The notes under the pieces are model-generated. The model ran no database searches. It worked only from the letters and a program-made list of their open reading frames with translations, and was not told where the DNA came from. The translations under genes were made by a program, and so were the position numbers. Below, in pieces: positions 23,310 through 52,319 of a stretch of 64,000 bases of DNA; within the stretch, counting starts at the first letter, position 1, and the number at the start of each line of letters is the position of its first letter. Origin of the DNA: Peltaster fructicola. Its lineage: Eukaryota; Ascomycota; Dothideomycetes. The DNA is taken from positions 2,480,001 to 2,544,000 of the forward strand of contig CP051143.1 in assembly GCA_001592805.2 (NCBI GenBank), given 5' to 3'.

Positions 23310-25175
23310 ATGCGCTCTTTTGCCCTCGCGTTCTTGTTCTCATCCTCATCAGCATTCTTCGGCCAAGCATACAGCTTCACAGATAGCCCGGCACTACACT
23401 TTCGCAATGGTGTCATCAGGCCAGCCTCGCCGAGCCTTCACTCGAGACAGCCATCGACACAGACGCTGCAGATACCCATTGACCATTCGAACAATGGTAG
23501 CAATACGTTTTCAAACAGATTTTGGGTCAACTCTACCTACTACAAATCCGGAGCACCAGTCTTCTTCATGGATGTCGGCGAGGCGACTGCTAGCGATGAC
23601 CTCATCCAATCGTGTCTGATGGAGGCATATGATCCATCTGCTGTTATGCAGCTTGCTCGCAAGTACAATGGTCTTGCAATCATGATGGAGCATCGCTTCT
23701 ACGGAGAGTCTCTGCCTTTTCCGATTGACAAGATTACTGGTCTTGCACCTGCTGGCTACGATGCGTATCGATACCTCACCATTGAGCAAGCTCTCGAGGA
23801 TGTGGTCTATCTCGCACAGCACTTCCAGCCCGAAGGTCTCAATTCGTCCTGGACGAAGCTGCACCCATCACAGACGCCATGGGTCTTCCTAGGTGGCTCA
23901 TATCCCGGCAACCGCGCAGCCTGGCTACGCATCCGCAATCCGGACATCATTTACGCAAGCTGGGCGTCGAGTGCCCCAGTAGAGACCGTTGTAGACATGT
24001 CGACATACTACACTCAGGTCTACTCAGACATGACTGCCAATTGTTCCGCAGACATGGCGGCTGCTTCGAGCTATCTGACTGACGTCCTCACTAATGGCTC
24101 GGCAAAAGACAGAGCTATCGTCACAGTCATGTCTAACCTTGCACAGGCGCCGAGCAACATATCGCAGTATCTTGGCATGGACGACGTCACGATACAGACT
24201 GCGTTTGAAGGCGCCAACACCACAGACTTCGGAGTAGCATACAATCTCGCGAACTTCATCGGAGATGGTTTGCAGAGCTTCGGCTTCACGGAGGCGCTGC
24301 TGCCATTCTGCACACTTGTGGAAGAATTCGATGCGGCTGAGGTCAGCAACAGCTCTATCTCTAGCATCATCGACACGACCTTCAACAATCCTTTCGATTT
24401 AAGACCTACACCTCAGGGCATTGCCGCGAACCACGGTCGGCAAGCAGCATTCCTCGCACTCATGTTTGGCATCTATGCTCAATCAGCGGCGATAGGGAAT
24501 GAACCCTCCTACCCAGATTCACATGCGATGGCCGACGCCAATTCCTGGACATGGCAGACCTGTCTTGACTTTGGCTACTTCCAGGTTGCCAACACTTCAT
24601 CTCCGAACAACCTACTGTCGAGCTTCATCAATGTCACCAGCTGGCACGACGAGCTATGTGTTTCGAACTTTCCTTACCCCCAGCTACCATCAAGTCCTAA
24701 TGCGCAGACCATCGTTGACAAGTATGGAGGCTGGAATATGAACCCGAGCCACGTCATGTTCACGGATGGCCTGAAAGATCCCTGGCACACGCTGAGTGTG
24801 CAGTCCAACTCGACGGAGATCGGGGCGCCCAATCGTACGACGACTCAGACAGTACCGGACTGTGGCAAGGCTGCCAATGGTAACGATGTCTTTGGTCTGA
24901 CATACCCAGACGCCTACCATGCCAGTGACCTAAGTGGCGGGACTGCTGAGTTCGAGCAAGGACTCGCACTGTTCGAGAAGGCACTCGATAAGTGGCTGCC
25001 GTGCTTTCAGAAGCATAGCGTCACAAGTAACACTACGTCGAGTACGACGCCTACCAGTACTGGTAGTGCACCAGGTGTGGCTTCGACTTCAGCGGTGAGT
25101 GGTGCTGCTGCTATGTCGAGGCATTCCCAGCTGGTCGGCATGGCGATGCTAATGGCCGTGATGGTCATAATGTAG
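23310..25175 (+). CDS. Secreted, probably GPI-anchored serine peptidase, family S28
   Basis: A single exon encodes 621 residues. Residues 1-22 are a signal peptide. The S28 (prolyl carboxypeptidase/thymus serine peptidase) triad is visible: Ser in 'VFLGGSYPGNRAAW', Asp in 'FTDGLKDPWHTLS', His in 'YPDAYHASDL'. The family usually has GGSYGG or GGSYAG, so the Pro here is a variation. 'MMEHRFYGESLP' is the other hallmark block. Many N-glycosylation sequons are present. A Ser/Thr-rich stalk and a hydrophobic end ('LVGMAMLMAVMVIM') indicate a GPI signal. Relatives cleave after proline and many act in acidic surroundings. Confidence 0.92.
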   Translation: MRSFALAFLFSSSSAFFGQAYSFTDSPALHFRNGVIRPASPSLHSRQPSTQTLQIPIDHSNNGSNTFSNRFWVNSTYYKSGAPVFFMDVGEATASDDLIQSCLMEAYDPSAVMQLARKYNGLAIMMEHRFYGESLPFPIDKITGLAPAGYDAYRYLTIEQALEDVVYLAQHFQPEGLNSSWTKLHPSQTPWVFLGGSYPGNRAAWLRIRNPDIIYASWASSAPVETVVDMSTYYTQVYSDMTANCSADMAAASSYLTDVLTNGSAKDRAIVTVMSNLAQAPSNISQYLGMDDVTIQTAFEGANTTDFGVAYNLANFIGDGLQSFGFTEALLPFCTLVEEFDAAEVSNSSISSIIDTTFNNPFDLRPTPQGIAANHGRQAAFLALMFGIYAQSAAIGNEPSYPDSHAMADANSWTWQTCLDFGYFQVANTSSPNNLLSSFINVTSWHDELCVSNFPYPQLPSSPNAQTIVDKYGGWNMNPSHVMFTDGLKDPWHTLSVQSNSTEIGAPNRTTTQTVPDCGKAANGNDVFGLTYPDAYHASDLSGGTAEFEQGLALFEKALDKWLPCFQKHSVTSNTTSSTTPTSTGSAPGVASTSAVSGAAAMSRHSQLVGMAMLMAVMVIM

Positions 25176-31245: not shown

Positions 31246-32607
31246 ATGCCAGCCCAAGACGACTCCTTGTACCTGACTATGGCTATTCTCAACATTCTAT
31301 GTTACCGTCAAGCACCTGATCGTCCTGAACGGAAGGGATGGCATCTGTTCATTGATCAGTTGTGTCACATGTGTGATCACGAAAGCGATGCCAAGTCGGT
31401 CTGCTGTAATGCTGGAGTAAAGAAGGAGGGAGCTCTTGTCCTGCTGTTTGCCACACGAGCCAAGGATCCGGACGAGTCTGTCCAGCACCTACAATGGCTA
31501 CTGTCCGTCCTACGTCCAGTTTCGGGAATGTCAAGTGACAGAAGGCTAAAATTGCTCCGGGAGATACAAGACAAGTGCCTAGCGCGCAGTACCGAGAGGA
31601 TAAGCAATTACAAGGACAACCTGAGGAAGAGGATCTCACGAACCTCAGAGGTGACACCAGCTGATCCAGGTAAGCTATACCGTTCATGAGATGCAAAGGC
31701 TTAGTCTTGGTCAGAGTTGACAGACGATCTCTCGACATGCTTGGACCAGAAGCAGACAAATACAGAACTGTGCCAGTGGGCTTACGACTTCAAAGAAACA
31801 GCGCTCGGTCAGCGATTGAGCAGTCACTGTGCCCAAAGTGTGCACGCTCAGCCCTGGCTCGAAGTCCAGCACTACATTGGAAGACTAAGATCATGGCATC
31901 GAGCTGCACGTATTCTTGTCAATCTTTCTGCGCGGCTTGGCAACCTGCTCAACGACATCACTGTCGCACTGATACCACTTCCAACACTGCCGCTAGGAAA
32001 AGGGTCGAGGAAGGATCCGCCCGCAAGTCCACCAGACCTTGGTAGCACACTTGAGATGATATGCCAAGGTCTGTCTGTCGAGCAGGTCAAGCAGAAGCTT
32101 CGACAAGCACTCACAGAACACAAGGAGAGTGAGCAAAAGTTAGACCTCGAAAGCCTGATCAACAAGATCTTTAAGCGGCGTGCAACCACTTACGATGTGC
32201 ATCCTGAAGTGGCCATGGCAGACTACATCCAGCGTCATGGTCTCAGATTCTTGGATAGGTACCGTTATATTGGTTGCAGCAAGCCCTCGTGTTATTGCTG
32301 CTCTTTGTACTTACGAGAGCACCCTTTACGCCTAGCCACAAGGCCCAGTCACAACAGGGTTTGGATGAGATGGTGCTATCCATTGTGCCCAGAGGACCAG
32401 AACGAAGATGAGAGGAGGCGTTGGGATATCCAACGTCTACGATTCGGCCGGAAGATGGCAGCTGAAACGAAGAGATGCCTCTTGCGTGAAGGTCGAGCAC
32501 GAGGATGGCTGCGTGACTCAACTACAGGTCGGACCGTTGGCAGTACGCTGCTGGAGGGATTGCTATTGACTGAGCTCGGTGACCTACGCATAAATGCCGA
32601 ACGCTGA
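31246..32607 (+). CDS. OTT_1508-like deaminase-fold protein
   Basis: Exons 31246-31669 and 31715-32607 (intron 45 bp) give 438 residues. The C-terminal third matches the OTT_1508-like branch of the nucleotide/nucleic-acid deaminase fold: 'YDVHPEVAMADYI' (the zinc His and proton-shuttling Glu), then 'YIGCSKPSCYCCSLYLREHP' with the metal cysteines, then 'RPSHNRVWMRWCYPLCPED'. The usual motif is HAE; here it is HPE. The N-terminal block 'EGALVLLFATRAKDPDESVQ' is also seen in fungal members. Comparative genomics predicts members of the wider fold to act on nucleic acids or in immunity and conflict systems; no fungal substrate is known. It is the last gene of the accessory block. Confidence 0.8.
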
Positions 32608-33853: not shown

Positions 33854-35224
33854 ATGATTCACATCACGCAGCTTCTCATCGCACCGGTCCTTGCTGCAGT
33901 GGTCTCTGCTGCACCAATGATCCCAACGGGTTTGCTGAATGGTATAGCTCAGCCGGAAGTCCCAGGCCACGCTCTACCAAGCCACCTGAGTGGTGCGAGC
34001 CCGGGTGTGGAGCCTCAGCAACATCCGCATCAATCGCACGAGATGAGCGGAGCGCCGATTCAAGCCCGTGATGCTATTATGCCGGACAACTACTTTTCGC
34101 ATGACCGCAATACGGGACCAGCTGTCCCAAATCGAAAGCCTTGCACGGGCACCAAATGCTGGAGCGACATTCTCAAGATGCCACCAATAGGAGCATCAGT
34201 TCAAGCCCGTGGTGCTCTAATCACCCCGGTTCTCCCAACTGGCAAGTCTTGCAAGGGAATCCGTTGCTGGGTAAGCGGCCCAACAATCACGGGAGTGCCA
34301 GCTCAGGCTCGTGATGCTGGCCGCGTGGATCCTGGACGCTTCAATCGCTTCAATCTGCACTTAGAGGATCTCTGGCACCAGAAACAAATCAACCCCAATG
34401 CACTAAAGCTTTCTCGTGATTCCTCGTCCACTCTGGAGGCTCCCGACCTCAACAAAGCGTTCGGCATCCCAGCAGACCTTCAACAGAATGACGACGTTCG
34501 CCGAATCGACGCTCGTGATGCTATGTACGTCAGCATACTCTGTTCCATGATGGGTCCCAGCCGCACTGGTTGCCCACAACCAAACAGGAATCCCTTCATC
34601 GGAATTGCTCGCGACGCAGGCCCAGAGCGCACGGAGGAAATCGAGAAATCGGCACAAATCACCAAGCGAGATGCTTCAGAACCAGAAGTATCAGACGCCG
34701 ACTTGAAGGCTCTCGAGGATGCTCTGAAGCAGTTCGACCAAGCAGATAACAGCAAGGTTCAAGCCCGTGACGCTGCATCGCTCAAGTTCGTCCCGTCATG
34801 TAAAGGTATAAACTGCGACGATGGTCCATTCAATCCGTACAAGAACTACAACAAGCTCAACGCTCGAGAGCCGGTGTTCTTCCTCATCCCGCTGATCAAG
34901 AAAATCTTTGGCAAGAGAGACCCTGAAGCAACAGGAGCCGATATGTCAGCTGCCATGAACCAGATGATGGCCGCTCAACAACAAGAGATGGCCATGCAAC
35001 AGCAGATGTCCAAATTGCAACAGGATGCCGCCAACGCACACAGAGTAGCAGGACTACAAGTTGCTTCGCGAGACGCTGGAACATCCGGAGCTGCTATGAG
35101 TGCTGCCATGAACCAGATGGCGGCCGCTCAAGCACAGCAGATGGCCATGTCACAGCAAATGGCCAAGTTACAGAACGCCGCCGCTGCTGCAAACAGGGGA
35201 GCTGCTCTCAAGGTCGCTGCTTGA
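33854..35224 (+). CDS. Secreted multi-peptide precursor with Arg-(X-Ala/X-Pro) processing-like sites
   Basis: A single exon encodes 456 residues. Residues 1-19 are a signal peptide. Arg followed by a dipeptide ending in Ala or Pro recurs along the chain: QARDA (70-74), QARGA (118-121), QARDA (151-155), ARDA (220-223, 252-255), KRDA (271-274), QARDA (303-307), AREP (338-340), KRDP (354-357), SRDA (405-408), NRGA (447-450). This is the layout of precursors cut after basic residues by a Kex2-like protease and then trimmed by a Ste13-like dipeptidyl aminopeptidase, as for yeast alpha-factor. Segments between the sites include three C-x-G-x-x-C motifs, a cationic hydrophobic 15-mer (341-355) and two Met/Gln/Ala-rich repeats at the end. 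The pheromone core W-C-x-x-x-G-Q is absent. Function unknown; processing is inference. Confidence 0.8.
   Translation: MIHITQLLIAPVLAAVVSAAPMIPTGLLNGIAQPEVPGHALPSHLSGASPGVEPQQHPHQSHEMSGAPIQARDAIMPDNYFSHDRNTGPAVPNRKPCTGTKCWSDILKMPPIGASVQARGALITPVLPTGKSCKGIRCWVSGPTITGVPAQARDAGRVDPGRFNRFNLHLEDLWHQKQINPNALKLSRDSSSTLEAPDLNKAFGIPADLQQNDDVRRIDARDAMYVSILCSMMGPSRTGCPQPNRNPFIGIARDAGPERTEEIEKSAQITKRDASEPEVSDADLKALEDALKQFDQADNSKVQARDAASLKFVPSCKGINCDDGPFNPYKNYNKLNAREPVFFLIPLIKKIFGKRDPEATGADMSAAMNQMMAAQQQEMAMQQQMSKLQQDAANAHRVAGLQVASRDAGTSGAAMSAAMNQMAAAQAQQMAMSQQMAKLQNAAAAANRGAALKVAA
34934..35221 (+). repeat. Two tandem Met/Gln/Ala-rich coding repeats
   Basis: The C-terminal region of the secreted precursor consists of two copies of a 45-48-residue unit (residues 361-408 and 412-456). 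Each begins GA-x-MSAAMNQM and continues through a Gln/Met run, 'QQM.KLQ' and an Ala-rich end. Copies differ mainly by Gln/Ala exchanges. Confidence 0.8.
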
Positions 35225-41347: not shown

Positions 41348-42994
41348 CTAGACCTCCATGTCATATTCGTCTTCTTCCTTCAGCTCTGGAGTGAAGGTGT
41401 CGTTCCATTGGAAGTTGTTCTGTGCTGCAGTGTTCCCATAGCCAGGGCTGACACTGTCGAAGCCAACGCCTTCGCCATGGATTGCATCACCTGCGACATT
41501 CGTGAAGCCTGGGACGCGCAGTCCAGTGCCTGGTGCTCGGGTATAACCATTGACCATGCCAGTGTTGGTGTGCTTGCCGAGGACTTCAGCAATCTCCGAG
41601 CTCATTCGCTTCTCATCCTCTGTCTGCTCGAAAGGCCACTGACCACCGAGCTGGCGCATGCGCTCTTTCAATTGCTCTTCTTGTCGCAGCTTGAGTTGGA
41701 GGTACCACATAAGATCGCGAGTCCAGGCGACAGAGCTGTTGAGTATGTCGCCCTTGTTTGGACCCTTATCCTTGTCCTCCATTGGCAGGCCTTGTGTTAT
41801 ATTGCCTGCTGTGGCTCGACGACCAGCAGCTGAGAGCAGGGAGGCATTTGGTGGTGAGATGCCAGATGCATTGGCGATTGATGGTGAAAGTGGTGCGTTG
41901 GTGGTGAGGTGCTTGCGGACCTTTTCATCTTCGAGTCGGTGCTGCGGTACAAGCGTGCCGAGATCGTGAATGCGTTCATTGATATTGTCTCGTCGCCGTC
42001 GCTCGACCATGTTGTGAGACTCGCGCCGACGTCGACGCTTAGCTTCTTGTGACTGCATTGCTGGAGGCGCGATACCTGGCTCCATCTTCGTCGGCAGAGA
42101 TGACGCTACTTTGTGGTGAGCGTTCTGATTGAGGACCTCAGAGATCTGTCGCTGCATGGCATGTCCATTTGCTGGAGATGGAAATGGTGAAGACTCATTC
42201 CAGCTGTGACCGCTTGGAGTGCCTTCCCAGTCACTGCCGCCCATGGAAGGACGCTGGCGGTGAACGATGCGTTGCATGCCAGGATGGAAGTCAGGCGTTT
42301 GGAGGTTCAGTCCGGGAGTTTTCGGCGTTGCAGTACCACGCTGGTCTTGCAGCTGAGGATGGAAGCCAGTTTGCTGTGGCAGACTTCGAGCATTTGCGAA
42401 TTGCTGCTGCTGCTGCTGAGGCATAGCGCGGAAGGAGGAATAGTCGAAGCCATGTGTGAATGGCGACTGAATTGGTGCGCCTTCAGGTGTATGCGAGAAG
42501 TGCTGAGCAGAATTGATTTGAGGGTTGTTCAGGAAGTTCTGCATGCCTCCGTTGAAGTCGAAATTGCCGCCTTGGTTGTCATTGATCTGAAGGTCGAGTA
42601 ACTCGTCGTCGGCGATGCCCGAGTTGCCCATGTTGAAGCTAGAAGACATGTTCTGGTTGAAGCCGCCATTCGAGAGGCTGGCTGGGTTGATGTTCATGTT
42701 GCCGATGTTCTGGTTCTGGTTGAATTGCATTGCTTGCTGGAGGTCGAAGTATTCGCTTGGTTCTGTTTTGATGAAAGGACTTCGGGCGCCTTCCATGGCG
42801 CAAGGGTTGTCTTCAAGCCGGTCGTCAAAGCCAAAGTCAATGGGCGAGTCGTGCTTGTCGAGGTCTATGACGAAGTCGGTGTCGATAGTAGTGTCTAGAG
42901 GAGGAAAACTAGTGAATCGTTCCTTTGGAGCTGAAGTGACGGGTCAGTGCCTCGTGTGACTCGACTGGCAAGGCAACTTACACAGTACCGTCAT
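41348..42994 (-). CDS. bHLH transcription factor (GlcD gamma-like)
   Basis: Exon 1 (42994-42982) encodes only 'MTVL' plus one base. A 51-bp intron leads to exon 2 (42930-41348), for 531 residues in all. This start restores an acidic N-terminus ('DTDFVIDLDKHDSPIDFGFD') that a start at 42796 would lose. The middle is Asn/Gln/Met-rich with a polyQ run. The basic region is 'RRRRRESHNMVERRRRDNIN' and helix 1 'ERIHDLGTLVPQHR'. The second helix comes after a long loop at 'NKGDILNSSVAWTRDLMWYL', followed by a leucine-rich coiled coil. The His-Glu-Arg pattern predicts E-box (CANNTG) binding. Aspergillus relatives are annotated GlcD gamma; the targets are unknown. Confidence 0.88.
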
Positions 42995-45462
42995 TACTTT
43001 TTATGGTAGATATCGGCGTGCGTGTTTGCTGATAGCCCAAATGAAGACTGTGCGTCTTTGTGTGTCCACTAACCCTGCCTGCTCTTATCTCCTCAGAGTC
43101 GAGTAGCTTACGTCCTGGTGGTATATGCGAATCGATTGCTGTAGGTAGTCTGAGTAGCAATACGTTGGGAAGGATGTCGAGTTGGGTAGGAGTATATGTG
43201 AAGGTCGAAGGTTACACAGCAGGAAAGCTGCCTTCTTAGAGGTGTGGCTCGCGTGGACGAGGCTTCACTGGAGGATGTGTTAGTCTATGACTGCAATTGC
43301 GAGGTCGCGCGGCGTGAATGGAGTTCAGGAAGCGGCCGCTATGAGGCATGCGAAGAGGGACATGACATCCGAAGGCCGCCGAGAAGACAAGCAAGTGCGC
43401 GAAACAGGTGATGTACTCACCTCTTGTCCTGGAGAGCCAGGACCTAAGGTGGCCTTGAAGGTCGAGGAAGATGGAAAGGTGGTCGTCTAGACGGAAGGCG
43501 GCAGTGCTTGGCTCCCGAAGCGGTGTGTGGGCGAGGGTCTCTTGGATCTCGCCGCGCAGCGTGCGCAGAACAGGATGCAAGATACCACACGCTCTTGTAG
43601 TAAACGAGCTGTGGTGGGTATGCGAGTCGTCAGTGCTCGCTTATGGCCGGCTGTCGTAGGAGGTCGGAATAGTATTTGCTTCTAGCTAGTGGGGGCTGCA
43701 GAAAGCACTTTCTCGTGGTGGTTTGTTGCGAGTCCCTTGTGGAGGTGACTGGGCGTCGATCACTTTGCGGGGTGGTGTTATTATGACTTGGAATTGAAGG
43801 GTGCCAGGTGCGACCTGTCTGTCAAGGGAGGTGTCTTTGTTCTGCAAGTGGCTGAGTCGAGATGGGCTTGTGAAGGGAGCCCAGGGATGGGATGGAGGAT
43901 GCGTATCGAGATTGTGTGTCTTAGGGTGGCGAAAATCGGCAACGGGTGTTTTGATACGCCGAGTGCTTATGACGCTGTTGGTTGTCCTAATCACTGCTGT
44001 GCAACTGTAGGAGTCTGTGGCGTTGTCGTCAGCATCAGGCATGAATCAAGACGGATGGGCTTTCTACCGATCAGAGCTCAGATCGTGACAAGGTGTGGCT
44101 GAGATAGCTGAGAGTCGATGTCGGTCGGTGATGTTGATGATGCTGATGAGACGAGAAGGTCAAGACCGGAGAGATCATGCTGCATTTATGTACACGCTGC
44201 CTACTCTCATGACTGGGAAGGAGGATATGATCGAGCCACACACCCACTTCTCCAAAGCTTGTGAAAGATGTATGAACCTTGCTCTCCCGGTAATCGCGCG
44301 GGCCTCGCAGTCTTGTTTGACATGAGAGATGTGGCGGCTGCCATATAGTCTCACTCTTTCAATCGACGCGTACACCAACCCACCAATGACTCACCAGAGC
44401 GAGGCAAGCAAAATGCTCAGTGTCGTCTTCTTTCATCCAACTCCTCGGGGCCTACCCGTACCAACTATATTTGGGCGATATCTGATCGACTGACAGCCTG
44501 CTCTGTGAGTGTCATCCTGAAACATTCGCACCAGCCCATCCCAACTGACCTTTCCACTTCTGTGCCACTCATCATGTCCTCATGCTGCTGCGTGCTCACT
44601 GGTCAGCTTGACCCAGAGGTCAGGTGATTGGATCACCGTTACTGCTGTCTCTGTAAACGCTTTGAAAGACCCAGCAGAGAATACACACTTGGGAAAGACA
44701 ACAGCACCTCCCAATCAATGATCATCGAGAAGCGACATGCTCATCGAAGGGGTCCACCCATGTCAAGTACCCATTGCAAGACAAGAGTGTGGCACCCAGG
44801 AATGAACAGTAGCTTCACTGTCATCCCACATCTTTGCGCAGTTCTCATCCAAGGCAGAAAGGGTGTCTTGCACATCTTTCACTTGCGCGCCCTAGCTTGT
44901 CACAAGTCCCAGCGAGAACACTCGCGCCCTTGTCTAGGAAGTGTGCTCGTCATCCAGGCCGGTCTTTGATAAGTGTGATGCACTCATGATGTCGACATGA
45001 GCGGCGCTAGCAAGCAGAAAGGTTCGGGCGACGGTGCCACAGTTATTAGTGAGTTTACCTGCAGCATGTACGATCTTGCAGGAAAGGAGATCATCCTGCA
45101 AGCGATACTTAGCTGCAGGAAATGTGTAGGACCCTTCTCGAGAAGCTAATGGCATCGGTGCGCGCTTTGCATCTTCCATTGTCTATAGGTCCCAAACATC
45201 ATCAATCTTCTCACCACCCATCAGCAGCACACACTTTCTCGTTCAGCATCGATCGATTTTACGACCCAATAACCGGACTTCCTTACTGCTGTCACCTGCT
45301 CGCCACTTTCACGACACCACCTCACAGCCCACACGGCTTGCGCATTACCCTTCTCCAGAACACCAGGCAGCACCTTTCCCTCAACGAACTAGCTTCTTGA
45401 GCCAGATCACCTCACAACTTGCGCCGCCATTTTCTCACGCACAAAGAATCACACGGCACAGC
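42995..45462. other. Longest gene-free stretch, upstream of bHLH and SFT2
   Basis: This 2.5-kb divergent gap holds the promoters and perhaps long leaders of the bHLH and SFT2 genes. Several short minus-strand open frames at about 43240-44040 could be upstream frames in a long bHLH leader. No protein family, RNA gene or repeat is recognised. Confidence 0.45.
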
Positions 45463-48218: not shown

Positions 48219-48734
48219 ATCCAAGTATCAGGTCTGTGCGCTATGTGGTGTTGTGATGTTGTCCGTCAGTGTATGCTCTCGAAGCAGTGTCTCGCAGGCT
48301 AAGTACGATTTGTTGGTGATTGCATTGATTGTTCCGATTCGCTGATTGCTTGCATCCAAGCTTTGGCTGAGATTCAGGCAGCTGTGAGTGGGTGATACTC
48401 TCACTTTCGACATCAACGAATGCTCATGACAATACCTTTGTCTAACGTCCTGCTCTACGGGCAGGTTGCTAACTAGATGTGTCGTAGACAAGACTCAGGC
48501 AGTGTATAGATGTCGTACGGAGCAACATCTACTCTGGTGCAACGTTCGCGGCTCTGGAGACCGTTCCTCCCACCCGCGGATGACTGATCCTCACCTTACA
48601 CACCTGCCGCTCAAGACTACAGTCTGCTACAGACAGCGGTACAGCCTCATCGGTTCGATATCTCACAGTCTCATGCCATATGCGATCTGTTGTATGGCCA
48701 GTTCGAGCAGACTAAGAGAATGACCTAGACGATC
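48219..48734. other. Divergent intergenic region
   Basis: Carries the promoters of the PPPDE gene and the F-box-like gene. Nothing else is recognised. Confidence 0.55.
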
Positions 48735-49916
48735 ATGCAGATCTCCAGAGGTGGCACTGCAGATGGCTACTTGATCGCTGTCAAACCAACGAGAAGTACT
48801 TCACCTCACGAACCTCAACAGACAGTGCCACAGCAGAGCCCTGACGTGCTCGCTTCGAATGTCGAAGGCATCAACTTCTGTCCGAAGCACGAAGCCGTGG
48901 CGTTCAGTGGTGAACTCCAGGCAGACAATATCCTCAATGTCAGACCCAGCGATGACGAACAGCATATGCACCAAGCAACGAGAATGCAGGTGCTTGACAA
49001 CCGCCATGGTTTCGAGGATGTCAGCATCGGCAGCAAGGAAGCTCTTCTTAGCACGAGTAGCACTATCGCTCCCGACACACCTCACAAGGCTGAAGCTACC
49101 ATATCACCAAGCTCAGCACTACTAGATCTTCCTCGTGAGCTCAGAGACATGATCTACGCAGAGCTTGCTGTACACTACGCCGATCCCGATTCACTTAAAG
49201 CATTGCCAATACCGCATGGCTACCAATACAAAGGTCCGGCTCGTATAGAGTCCCTGCACACGATACGTGGCTCACGGCCTCCTGACGTCCCAGACACACG
49301 CATATACTTGACTTTACAACTAGTCTGCCGTCAGGTCAAGATTGAGATCGAAGAGTTCCGCGCAGGTATGAAGCACATGGACGCAGAGCTCGAGATCATA
49401 TGCAAAGCGCCTCAGATCTTCGTACCTTTGTGGACACGGCTCCCTCTACTGAGAGTGGGTGATCAGCTCATCAACATCAATGTCACCGTAAGACTCCGCA
49501 CATATGACCCTATCCACCACGGCGACTTTCTCTTGGACTTCATACATGCTCTGATCGAGCATCAACCAACATCTTGCAAATGGGAGCCCTGGGCGAGCTC
49601 CATAATGGAGCGTGTGCGAGCACGGGTTGGATTATTGAGGATCACGACGGTATGCGAAGACATGTACACACCAGACCAATACCTGGACAGAGTCATACAA
49701 TTCCAAGGAAGGGCACTTACGACGCAGAAGTCGTCCTTTCTAGAGGAGATTGGTGAAGTCGTGGACATCGACGGTCTTCGTATCAGCACTGACACTGAAC
49801 TCTTCGCTAGAAGACGTTACTGGTACAAGAAACGCGAAGGCAGTGACGCCCTAGCCTCTCGATGGTACAATTCAGAAGTGTCAACCGAACGACAAGCATG
49901 GGACATCTATGACTAG
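48735..49916 (+). CDS. F-box-like fungal protein
   Basis: A single exon encodes 393 residues. After a disordered N-terminus of about 130 residues comes 'SALLDLPRELRDMIYAELAV', the degenerate F-box-like start found in many fungal families, followed by 'LTLQLVCRQVKIEIEEF'. The rest has no recognised domain. Such proteins may act as SCF substrate receptors, but many are uncharacterised and may not bind Skp1. It is convergent with the aspartyl protease gene (190-bp gap). Confidence 0.7.
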   Translation: MQISRGGTADGYLIAVKPTRSTSPHEPQQTVPQQSPDVLASNVEGINFCPKHEAVAFSGELQADNILNVRPSDDEQHMHQATRMQVLDNRHGFEDVSIGSKEALLSTSSTIAPDTPHKAEATISPSSALLDLPRELRDMIYAELAVHYADPDSLKALPIPHGYQYKGPARIESLHTIRGSRPPDVPDTRIYLTLQLVCRQVKIEIEEFRAGMKHMDAELEIICKAPQIFVPLWTRLPLLRVGDQLININVTVRLRTYDPIHHGDFLLDFIHALIEHQPTSCKWEPWASSIMERVRARVGLLRITTVCEDMYTPDQYLDRVIQFQGRALTTQKSSFLEEIGEVVDIDGLRISTDTELFARRRYWYKKREGSDALASRWYNSEVSTERQAWDIYD

Positions 49917-50106: not shown

Positions 50107-51510
50107 CTACAGCATGGCGATCAGACCTGCACCAACTGCTCCGATCACAGCAGCACCATATGCAGCAGGCGTCGGTGCAGCACCACCAATAGTTGATGTG
50201 AGAGTGATCGTTCCTCCGTTGATGTTACCGACGCCACCGGCAGCATTCGTGGCGGTTGTCACAGGACTCGTGACTGCCGTTGCGCTCGGCACGCTCGTGT
50301 TGGTAATCTCAAGGACATTGCTGCTTGTGCTGTTGAAGTCCGTCTGGGCAAGCGATATCTCGTTGTTCTCCAGATCGTAGACGACATATGCTGAGCGTAG
50401 GAAGGTGTCGCCCAGGACGGCTGTGGAGCCATCTGCAGGGCTGATACCGAGGATGCAGACATTCTCTCTTCCATTGTAGCCGGCAACGATCACCATCTCG
50501 CTCAAGGCGACTCTGATGGTGGCGCCTGAGAAGGTGAAGTCCAGAGTGGTCGAGTTCTGCTGCTGACTGCAGTCGATGATGGCCAGTCCTTCCTCCTGGT
50601 CGTACTGAGCACCGAACATGGTGTAGGCTTGCTGCGCGAGGTTGTCTGGCAAGTACATCAGACTGCTGCCGGAGTCGAGCAATACAGCAATGGCTTGATT
50701 GCTGGCAATAGATCCAGTATTGCCATTGAAGCCAAGTGCGGTCAGGGCGATCAGGAACGCCGAATAGACACCGCTTGTCTTGATGATGGGCACAGTTTGA
50801 AGAGTGCCTTGGAATTTGTCGGTATCGACACCACCGAACAAGATCGAGCCTGTTGAGGCGTCAAGATCGTTCAGCCATAGACTGTAGGCATTGCTGTTGA
50901 TATAGCCCGACTGTACGAGATGCTGGGGAACATTGACATATGTTTTGTCGCCATTGTACCGCAATATAGCCTCGTTTGTCGTATATCCGATACCAAGAAT
51001 GCCCTCAGCTGAGCTCGAATAGTAGCCAATGCCAAGTTCCTGTCCAGTCAAGTTCGCACCTCCGAAACTGACAGTATCTGTCGCGTAGTCACCTGTGGAG
51101 CCGGAGCCGTCGGCGTATGTGATGTTGAACAAGCTGTTCACGTAGGAATATGTACTCGAACTGTTGGCACTGTATGTGCCAGAGACTGAACATTGGTTCC
51201 CTCGCGAGCTACAGAGGGTGCTCTTAGGCGTATTCACCCATAGATCGCTGCTTCCAGTGTCGATATGGAGGTTGAACGTTTGTGCGGGTGTGCCGATATA
51301 TGTGTTCATCAAGTAGAGTGTTTTTCTGTTGGTCAATGAAGCGGCGATTGTGCCAGCTCTCGGTCGTAGTCGTTCTGCGTCATTTGATGGTCGTTCTATC
51401 TGCGTCCGTCGTATGTCATGCTGTACCACTCGTGGCGCATCTCGGGGTGTCAGTAACGACAGCGCATTGGCGACACCAGCCAGCACAGCCACATTCCCAA
51501 TGAGCCGCAT
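50107..51510 (-). CDS. Secreted aspartyl protease (yapsin-like, GPI type)
   Basis: A single exon encodes 467 residues from the ATG at 51510. The frame opens further upstream, but only this start gives a signal peptide ('LIGNVAVLAGVANALS'). A propeptide follows. Both pepsin-type catalytic motifs are intact: 'HIDTGSSDLWVN' and 'VLLDSGSSLMYLP', with the flap at 'ITYADGSGSTGDYATD'. The C-terminus has a Ser/Thr/Asn-rich stalk and a hydrophobic end ('AAVIGAVGAGLIAML'), which predicts GPI anchoring. Yapsins act on wall proteins and surface precursors after basic residues. Confidence 0.92.
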   Translation of the reverse strand: MRLIGNVAVLAGVANALSLLTPRDAPRVVQHDIRRTQIERPSNDAERLRPRAGTIAASLTNRKTLYLMNTYIGTPAQTFNLHIDTGSSDLWVNTPKSTLCSSRGNQCSVSGTYSANSSSTYSYVNSLFNITYADGSGSTGDYATDTVSFGGANLTGQELGIGYYSSSAEGILGIGYTTNEAILRYNGDKTYVNVPQHLVQSGYINSNAYSLWLNDLDASTGSILFGGVDTDKFQGTLQTVPIIKTSGVYSAFLIALTALGFNGNTGSIASNQAIAVLLDSGSSLMYLPDNLAQQAYTMFGAQYDQEEGLAIIDCSQQQNSTTLDFTFSGATIRVALSEMVIVAGYNGRENVCILGISPADGSTAVLGDTFLRSAYVVYDLENNEISLAQTDFNSTSSNVLEITNTSVPSATAVTSPVTTATNAAGGVGNINGGTITLTSTIGGAAPTPAAYGAAVIGAVGAGLIAML

Positions 51511-52319
51511 CTTGAAGTGTGGTAATATGTGATTGCGAAAACGCTGATGCAAGTGAGGAATGAAGAATACGCAGATGATGCAAGACTGAAGAAGATGTAC
51601 AGTAGCGCAATGAGGATAGGAATATTCCACGAGGCGCAGTGACGCGGCCTGCTGAGGTCGATGTCGTATGCTAAAAGGTAGAAAATGGGTTTCCCGATGG
51701 CGCGTCATACGGCTCTTTCGGCAGAATTGAGGCGCTTGTCGTCCCAATCTCAAATCAGCTTTAGCTCGCAGATCCTCGAACACTGGCGGCATGTGTTCGT
51801 GCCATCACATGATCTGTTCGTCACTGATGATGCAGAAGAAGACACTGTGGTCTTGAAACGATCGTAGCGCGTAGGATGACGCCGCTACTGAGGATCTGAG
51901 AGCTTGTCGGATCGTTAATGCATGAGATGGCGGTAGTGAGATCGCCGCTCCTGCTGCGCTGCCGCCGCCGCAAGGACACACGACACGTAAACGCTTGCCA
52001 CCAAGGGTAGCTCAGGATCAACCAGGTGAGTCTCCGCCACGTTTGCACTCCGCAGCATGAGTAACCCACGATGGTGAGTCAATCTGGTACTTGATGCCAC
52101 GTAGTCATGACTGCAAGGCACAAGCGTGGTCGCCAAACGACACTTATAGCTGCAGATGGTTCGCCAGGAGTCCACGGATGGACTCTGCGCCATTTTGGGA
52201 CTCTCAGCACAGCCTCGCGACAACGAGATCCTTGATTTGGGCCCATTGTGGCATACACAGCTTCCTTTGGCTCAGTTGAAACAATAGCCACTATGTGCAC
52301 CCAAGGAATACCATACAGC
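51511..52319. other. Intergenic region
   Basis: Between the start of the aspartyl protease and the stop of the GH47 gene, both minus strand. No gene, RNA or repeat is recognised. Confidence 0.5.

Follow-up and report, generated by a model that had tools for sequence, protein, structure and literature searches.

Positions 33854-35224 (+) of the window (the 64,000-nucleotide stretch analysed here, positions 2480001-2544000 of contig C5 of Peltaster fructicola) carry an open reading frame (ORF) whose product we call T. T is probably a polyprotein that is secreted and yields about a dozen distinct peptides; at least three such precursors form a family, of which T is a diverged member, and the hydrophobic peptides of the family are probably membrane-active. 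Two paralogues, A and B, are encoded elsewhere in the genome, which comprises 18,987,130 bases on five contigs (C5, 2,770,634 bases; C1, 4,890,228 bases). The fungus is described as plant-surface-dwelling, with an effector-poor genome of ~19 Mb (PMC7181583).

Arginine sites and peptide units of T

The codon-bias index of T (0.738) exceeds that of 1,000 random synonymous versions, which reach at most 0.692, and lies within the range of 0.70-0.79 seen across the 17 window frames of at least 350 amino acids (aa), T among them. Because this codon use matches that of genuine genes, we take T to be a real coding gene. The N-terminus has a hydrophobic run followed by VSA↓AP (the arrow marks a cut) and is signal-like as judged by inspection, by a home-made heuristic and by N-terminal identity with A, suggesting that T is sent to the endoplasmic reticulum (ER). 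In Pfam, the best match to T had an E of 0.55, under its cut-off, and no folded domain was seen; the best match in the PDB had an E of 0.76. AlphaFold2, run on the single sequence with no alignment and so weak evidence, gave a mean predicted local distance difference test score of 40, with 363 of the 456 residues below 50 and two long helices, both within the last 100 residues.

T has 24 Arg residues after the signal peptide. Eleven of these (R72, 119, 153, 221, 253, 272, 305, 338, 355, 406 and 448) are followed by [DGE]-[AP], R188 (SR↓DS) is a near miss and twelve more fall outside the rule. The signal peptide, the 11 sites and the rule-breaking SRDS had all been named in the original prediction, made from the window sequence alone, and all are borne out in T, the signal peptide as a signal-like start; when the 437 post-signal residues were shuffled, a mean of 0.9 and a maximum of 6 sites were obtained, and none of 20,000 shuffles reached 11. 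Stop-to-stop frames of 150 aa or more were also counted across 302 kb of this genome, comprising the window and loci L002-L028, of which a few overlap; among these 278 frames, T being one, the next-highest count was three, reached by two frames.

The sites had been defined by the residues after the Arg, a choice of the original prediction, and the residues before the Arg constitute a separate test. With residue sets that were picked post hoc or from the literature, and with duplicated sites that are not fully independent, L/I/V/A/P was found at P4 of 9/11 sites versus 1/13 other Arg residues (one-sided Fisher p = 4e-4; together the five residues account for 38% of T), and L/I/V only at 7/11 versus 1/13 (p = 0.006). 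At P2, the sites have Ala (7), Lys (2), Ser (1) or Asn (1), such that Ala occurs at 7/11 sites versus 0/13 other Arg residues (p = 1e-3) and A/K/S at 10/11 versus 2/13. The P2 list known for yeast Kex2 (K/R/T/P/E/I) was not enriched in T, at 2/11 versus 3/13. The form of the T site is thus shown statistically to be aliphatic-x-[A/S/K]-R↓[D/E/G]-[A/P]. Pairwise comparison of the six ARDA/ARGA sites revealed 25 silent and 7 non-silent differences; because the site codons differ mostly silently, the motif is not a recent DNA copy. Cutting at these sites and at R188 would give the following units.

33854..35224 (+), T, gene for a multi-peptide precursor; 456 aa encoded in one exon, from ATG to stop
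33854..33910 (+), signal peptide, residues 1-19, its end placed by inspection; identical to A at 12 of the first 22 residues
33911..34069 (+), unit 0 (20-72), Pro/His-rich leader; ends IQAR↓DA
34070..34210 (+), unit 1 (73-119), cationic, CTGTKC; ends VQAR↓GA
34211..34312 (+), unit 2 (120-153), cationic, CKGIRC; ends AQAR↓DA
34313..34417 (+), unit 3 (154-188), cationic; ends KLSR↓DS (weak site)
34418..34516 (+), unit 4 (189-221), acidic; ends IDAR↓DA
34517..34612 (+), unit 5 (222-253), two Cys; ends GIAR↓DA
34613..34669 (+), unit 6 (254-272), short, acidic; ends ITKR↓DA
34670..34768 (+), unit 7 (273-305), acidic spacer, homologous to the A/B spacers (profile match 279-305); ends VQAR↓DA
34769..34867 (+), unit 8 (306-338), CKGINC; ends LNAR↓EP
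34868..34918 (+), unit 9 (339-355), hydrophobic and cationic, with a profile match (347-355) to the C-terminal half of the A/B amphipathic units; ends FGKR↓DP
34919..35071 (+), unit 10 (356-406), Ala/Gln/Met-rich predicted helix; ends VASR↓DA
35072..35221 (+), unit 11 (407-456), a duplicate of unit 10 that has diverged; NR↓GA at 448 may be the last cut

Most unit cores are mutually dissimilar and T contains no long tandem array. Units 10 and 11 differ by 0.24 nonsynonymous and 1.09 synonymous substitutions per site over 42 codons, and units 1, 2 and 8 share CxGxxC, with weaker likenesses of units 2/5 and 5/6 (66 pairs compared, uncorrected). Internal duplication has therefore occurred, as would be expected if T were an uncut secreted protein whose Arg sites are relics of an old duplication of a unit ending QARDA. 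We regard this as very unlikely, given that, across units with mostly dissimilar cores, the two halves of the site have been kept while their codons changed silently, that such sites also border the repeats of A and B, and that no fold was predicted for T, the last being a weak point as the prediction used a single sequence.

Two paralogues with repeated units

Strict and relaxed protein searches of the genome with T gave no relative. A DNA pattern for [I/V]QARDA matched four places in the genome, two in T, one in a frame without visible likeness and one in A, which was recognised by its content and not by the pattern count. A genome search with A then gave B, and one with B returned A again and nothing further. 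Since the searches failed to link T with A or B, the family may be larger. Another site pattern was discarded, with 350 matches against 328 for its reversed control; among the first 100 matches listed, the in-frame pair that was followed sat in a frame that looked WD40-like by eye.

L030:505-1866 = C3:2850667-2852028 (+), paralogue A, 453 aa; behind a Pro/Thr-rich leader, acidic spacers alternate with six hydrophobic units, four short and two longer
L036:1165-4434 = C2:4064664-4067933 (-), paralogue B, 1089 aa; seven near-identical copies of a predicted cationic amphipathic peptide, five of a second, and a four-Cys tail

T, A and B are each a single open frame, starting MIHITQLLIAPVL, MVQIKQLILAPVL and MVQVKSFVVVPLL, respectively. 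Pfam gave only matches below cut-off for A, and PDB searches with A and with B found nothing. A match of MtrF, a methanogen subunit, to residues 860-887 of B (25.3 bits, cut-off 22) involves a hydrophobic stretch and was put down to chance. The codon-bias index is higher in A (0.765) than in T and highest in B (0.831), where it exceeds that of all 17 window frames of 350 aa or more, a hint that B is strongly expressed.

When A and B were cut at Arg before D/E, and also before G-A and at KR↓A, spacers and hydrophobic units were found to alternate over most of A and the second half of B. In A, four copies of FFGLLKQLFGLG or close variants lie between AR↓DP and GRR↓D and are followed by two hydrophobic units of greater length, bordered by VQAR↓D and KKSxR↓D; an acidic spacer (core charge -4 to -7) stands ahead of every hydrophobic unit. 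B has a long N-terminal part without alternation, then seven copies of [GN]FLDT[IL]KGIF[GST]KIFG between [AT]R↓DA and KR and five copies of GWGSIISTGIS..., with acidic spacers too. Across the 18 hydrophobic units of A and B the core charge is 0 to +3; for one 47-residue unit of B (463-509), consisting of spacer and peptide together, the net charge is -3.

The two borders of the hydrophobic units are not alike. For a set of 19 units (A 6, B 12, T 1), which was our choice and excludes three hydrophobic units of B (residues 243-387) flanked on either side by monobasic sites, all 19 left borders are monobasic and carry L/I/V at P4, with Ala (11) or Thr (8) at P2. The right border is dibasic in 13/19; the other six end KKSGR, KKSSR, KKQSR (three) or PKQQR. 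Arg is followed by D/E at 10/24 positions in T, 14/23 in A (terminal Arg left out) and 33/43 in B, against a baseline of 263/2472 in other frames of at least 300 aa. In A, P4 is L/I/V/A/P at 12/14 Arg residues before D/E versus 2/9 elsewhere. The ratio of nonsynonymous to synonymous differences between copies is 0.19 for the seven hydrophobic units of B, 0.18 for the four of A and 0.11 for two GWGSIIS units, and 0.31-0.40 for the spacers (eight of B, in three equal-length groups), which are less conserved than the hydrophobic units. These ratios indicate that purifying selection acts between the hydrophobic unit copies of A and B.

A profile made from 19 of the 20 A and B spacers matched residues 279-305 of T, a match whose end coincides with VQAR (12.4 bits; none of 2000 shuffles of T scored as well), and one made from 11 of the 18 hydrophobic units, the short ones, matched T at 347-355 (7.9 bits; 1 of 2000). 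The spacer and the hydrophobic unit of T are thus homologous to those of A and B and in register with the cut sites. Because the profiles and BLASTP match A and B, we read unit 7 as a spacer and unit 9 as the remaining hydrophobic peptide. The core of unit 9, VFFLIPLIKKIFG, is flanked by EP and KR, lying between LNAR↓EP and FGKR, so that its borders are monobasic on the left and dibasic on the right, like those of the short A and B units. No counterpart in A or B was seen for the other T units. Judged from these sequences, the genome encodes a family of three or more multi-peptide precursors, and T is one that has diverged. The claim that T is a secreted precursor cut into about a dozen peptides is supported both by the upstream half of the sites, scored separately, and by the paralogue sites at unit borders. 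Homologues had also been expected to conserve the sites; looked at within one genome, A and B do keep such sites at unit borders.

In a protein database, T as query returned T alone, with no relative at E up to 10, in a search whose word-based first step kept about 8,000 candidates and can miss fast-evolving relatives. Fungi are well covered there, as a control query, the secreted S28 peptidase of the window (23310-25172, +), returned 313 proteins including itself. Among the best 120 of these 313, the top three relatives are 54-66% identical and lie on short contigs, and the best in a named fungus is 45% identical; the matches of 54-66% raise the possibility that closer relatives of P. fructicola exist in public data. 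For B, 54 stretches in prokaryote and 13 in viral contigs fitted the word pattern, and none was confirmed. The family was not found described in the open-access literature, supplements aside.

Candidate processing enzymes and gene neighbourhood

The genome contains one kexin match, which aligns with yeast kexin residues 133-625 and keeps the motifs around what we take to be the catalytic Asp, His and Ser. There is also one match to a dipeptidyl peptidase IV (DPPIV)-type enzyme, with an N-terminal membrane anchor by inspection, and there are 12 matches to S10 carboxypeptidases, some of them parts of one gene. In the proposed pathway, the signal peptide would direct T into the secretory pathway at the ER, kexin (Kex2) would cut after Arg at the sites of the form given above, a Kex1-like carboxypeptidase would strip the C-terminal basic residues, and the DPPIV-type peptidase may take off the N-terminal X-Ala or X-Pro. 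The hydrophobic peptides, presumably kept harmless inside the cell by the acidic spacers, would probably hit membranes of competing microbes or of the plant surface; the charge, the hydrophobicity and the acidic-spacer arrangement of the A, B and T peptides all suggest membrane activity. The other T units, several with the small CxGxxC loop, would be further secreted peptides. A search for Cu2_monoox_C, which would point to amidation of the GKR end, gave no match in the genome; control genomes were equally without a match, so that this negative carries no weight.

Fungal Kex2 is described as favouring Leu or another aliphatic residue at P4, with P2 variable and Asp at P3 unfavourable (PMC8528282), and D/E and A/V/L abound at P1'-P2' of those Kex2 sites where cutting does occur (PMC2515848). 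Kex2 as the cutter, proposed in the original prediction, is not supported as stated: a kexin is present and P4 and P1'-P2' fit, but it is a candidate enzyme, and Ala is not among the top yeast P2 residues given in PMC8528282. The same prediction took X-Ala/X-Pro to mean Ste13 trimming, which need not be so, as the cut Kex2 sites of PMC2515848 are themselves rich in such residues and 8/14 R↓D/E sites in A and 11/33 in B are without Ala or Pro next. Because cut Kex2 sites prefer such P1'-P2' residues, it may be the endoprotease that benefits from the D-A pair, and trimming by Ste13 would then be optional.

The main rival to Kex2 at the Ala-Arg sites is a second protease, the precursor logic being the same, with Kex2 cutting dibasic sites only and the monobasic sites falling to another enzyme such as an aspartyl protease of the yapsin type, held at the cell surface by a glycosylphosphatidylinositol (GPI) anchor. 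Ala at P2 suits yeast Kex2 poorly (PMC8528282), monobasic and dibasic sites tend to flank the hydrophobic units on opposite sides, and a candidapepsin-related secreted aspartyl protease with a hydrophobic tail that by eye resembles a GPI signal is encoded in the window at 50110-51804 (-), 15 kb from T. That proximity is probably accidental, however, as the scanned intervening genes carry unrelated domains; moreover, the P4 and P1'-P2' preferences of T suit Kex2, and 8/19 left borders have Thr at P2, a residue on the yeast Kex2 list (PMC8528282). On balance we consider the involvement of a second protease rather unlikely.

More tentatively, though still with odds against it, the borders could reflect a two-step cutting code in a fungal polyprotein toxin family, with T having diversified from repeats into mixed peptides. 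The strong dibasic sites would first release a masked unit of acidic spacer and cationic helix, net negative; the monobasic [L/I/V]-x-[A/T]-R left of the helix would be cut later or extracellularly, activating the peptide; and a dipeptidyl peptidase would then trim the freed peptide.

A number of observations weigh against our reading of T as a processed member of the A and B family. The whole-genome searches with T, A and B never joined T to A or B, and BLASTP likeness is weak (T versus A, 37 bits, E 9e-7; T versus B, 35 bits, E 7e-6; single comparisons). The [I/V]QARDA pattern, with four matches compared with two for a reversed control, means little as a lone match. Only two K-R sites in T fit the rule, and IDAR at R221 has Asp at P3, called unfavourable for Kex2. 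In B, L/I/V/A/P at P4 is not commoner before D/E (19/33) than elsewhere (7/10). The distribution of 0 or 2 Cys per unit in T was equalled by 213/437 shifted cut sets, and we rejected it as proof of the unit borders. Unit 9 is not significantly amphipathic, with 16% of shuffles reaching its helix moment, and the helix moments in A and B are modest, being matched for seven units by 0.1-9% of shuffles and by less than 5% for only four. The weakest step is the presumed cutting at Ala-Arg: Ala is absent from the top P2 residues listed for yeast Kex2 in PMC8528282, and because the kexin looks canonical near its active site, cutting there could be slow or absent. Only resemblance suggests an antimicrobial or lytic action, and the predicted peptides and processing of T, A and B are drawn from sequence.

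Among the 20 neighbouring ORFs scanned with Pfam (with T, 21 of the 42 window frames picked), no biosynthetic cluster around T was seen. This bears on the idea that T is a precursor of cyclised, dikaritin-type ribosomally synthesized and post-translationally modified peptides, which would share the signal peptide, Kex2-type sites and short Cys-bearing units. No UstYa (DUF3328) was present among these ORFs, and the two UstYa matches in the genome are on C1 and C3, not on the contig of the window, the one on C3 lying 87 kb from A; we think this origin extremely improbable.

Sites similar to those of T occur near the N-terminus of three other presumed genes, the kexin (KR↓DA), the aspartyl protease of the window (TPR↓DA) and a 270-aa protein (QTR↓DP), among 14 listed besides T from 44 signal-like frames, many of which are probably not genes. 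The aspartyl protease has its LTPR↓DAP right after the signal peptide and is a candidate cutter of monobasic sites. The 270-aa protein (L028:4470-5282, -) is signal-like and Cys-bearing, with an LQTR↓DP site and no Pfam match. Other features of the window are as follows.

31705-32604 (+), OTT_1508-like deaminase domain, upstream of T
42001-44000, strong GC skew (0.248), beside and partly over a helix-loop-helix gene
48729-49913 (+), 395-codon open frame with no Pfam match

Relation to known precursors

The published surveys of Kex2-processed repeat proteins (KEPs) cut at dibasic sites only and look for at least three similar repeats (Le Marquer 2019, PMC6339444; Umemura 2020, PMC7329392); Peltaster is absent from the main text of PMC7329392, tables aside. 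Like KEPs, T, A and B have a signal peptide (for T, by heuristic and inspection) and units between Kex2-type sites, often with X-Ala or X-Pro after the cut. T differs in that its sites are mostly monobasic and its units unlike. Le Marquer asks for at least four KR/RR fragments; T has 4 (198, 55, 83 and 101 aa), A 5 and B 10. At least three similar repeats between dibasic sites were not found in T, whose three KR/RR cuts leave fragments of unlike length; A has three neighbouring fragments of similar length (40, 44 and 49 aa) and B six (47-48 aa). Judged by these lengths and by the visible repeats, A and B look like KEPs on the published criteria, and T appears as a diversified, mostly monobasic member of a KEP-like precursor lineage, with A and B known from one genome.

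The original prediction had argued that, as the peptides differ, T may be a new type of precursor. This does not stand, since A and B are repeat precursors of which T is a diverged relative, and since different peptides from one precursor are already known from Ece1 of Candida albicans, a secreted precursor with seven KR sites (PMC12153327); the mostly monobasic mix of T is a variant. Compared by description, Ece1 and T both hold several different peptides, one of them hydrophobic, amphipathic and KR-ended, and differ in that the T sites are mostly monobasic and that A and B hold several copies of the presumed membrane-active peptide.

With ascomycete pheromone precursors of the alpha-factor type, T shares X-Ala or X-Pro straight after a Kex2-type cut at the 11 sites, a placement given as the STE13 signature in PMC6339444. 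The rule fits the P1'-P2' preference of Kex2 too (PMC2515848). Unlike in that type, T mostly has a single dipeptide and not a run, most units differ so that no near-identical repeated core is present, and by eye no pheromone-like core was recognised. Prepromelittin and the antimicrobial peptide precursors of frog skin combine an acidic propiece with a cationic amphipathic helix and a Gly-Lys-Arg end, with dipeptidyl trimming in melittin; their layout is like the spacer and peptide of A and B, in unrelated organisms.

Rep1 of Ustilago maydis, by description, is likewise a Kex2-cut secreted precursor of many amphipathic peptides (PMC8528282, PMC12153327). Its peptides form amyloid-like fibrils (PMC8528282), and T could similarly be a surface or structural protein, a repellent or adhesive whose processed peptides assemble on the hypha with no attack on membranes. 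The description of the fungus as surface-dwelling (PMC7181583) and the long Ala/Gln/Met-rich predicted helices of units 10 and 11 would agree with such a role. We nevertheless find it improbable, as the pairing of hydrophobic, mostly cationic units with acidic spacers in A and B is more suggestive of masked lytic peptides.

Because the left border is monobasic in 19/19 units, a dibasic-only rule would report spacer and peptide of A and B as one product, and surveys that cut at dibasic sites only and require repeats, as described in PMC6339444 and PMC7329392, would miss precursors such as T. Together, T, A and B may supply the fungus with a small arsenal of peptides and not just one protein. 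Should the two-step code hold, it suggests a way for a fungus to make lytic peptides safely, and [L/I/V]-x-[A/T]-R before D/E would be a searchable rule for genomes that, like this one, are described as effector-poor (PMC7181583).

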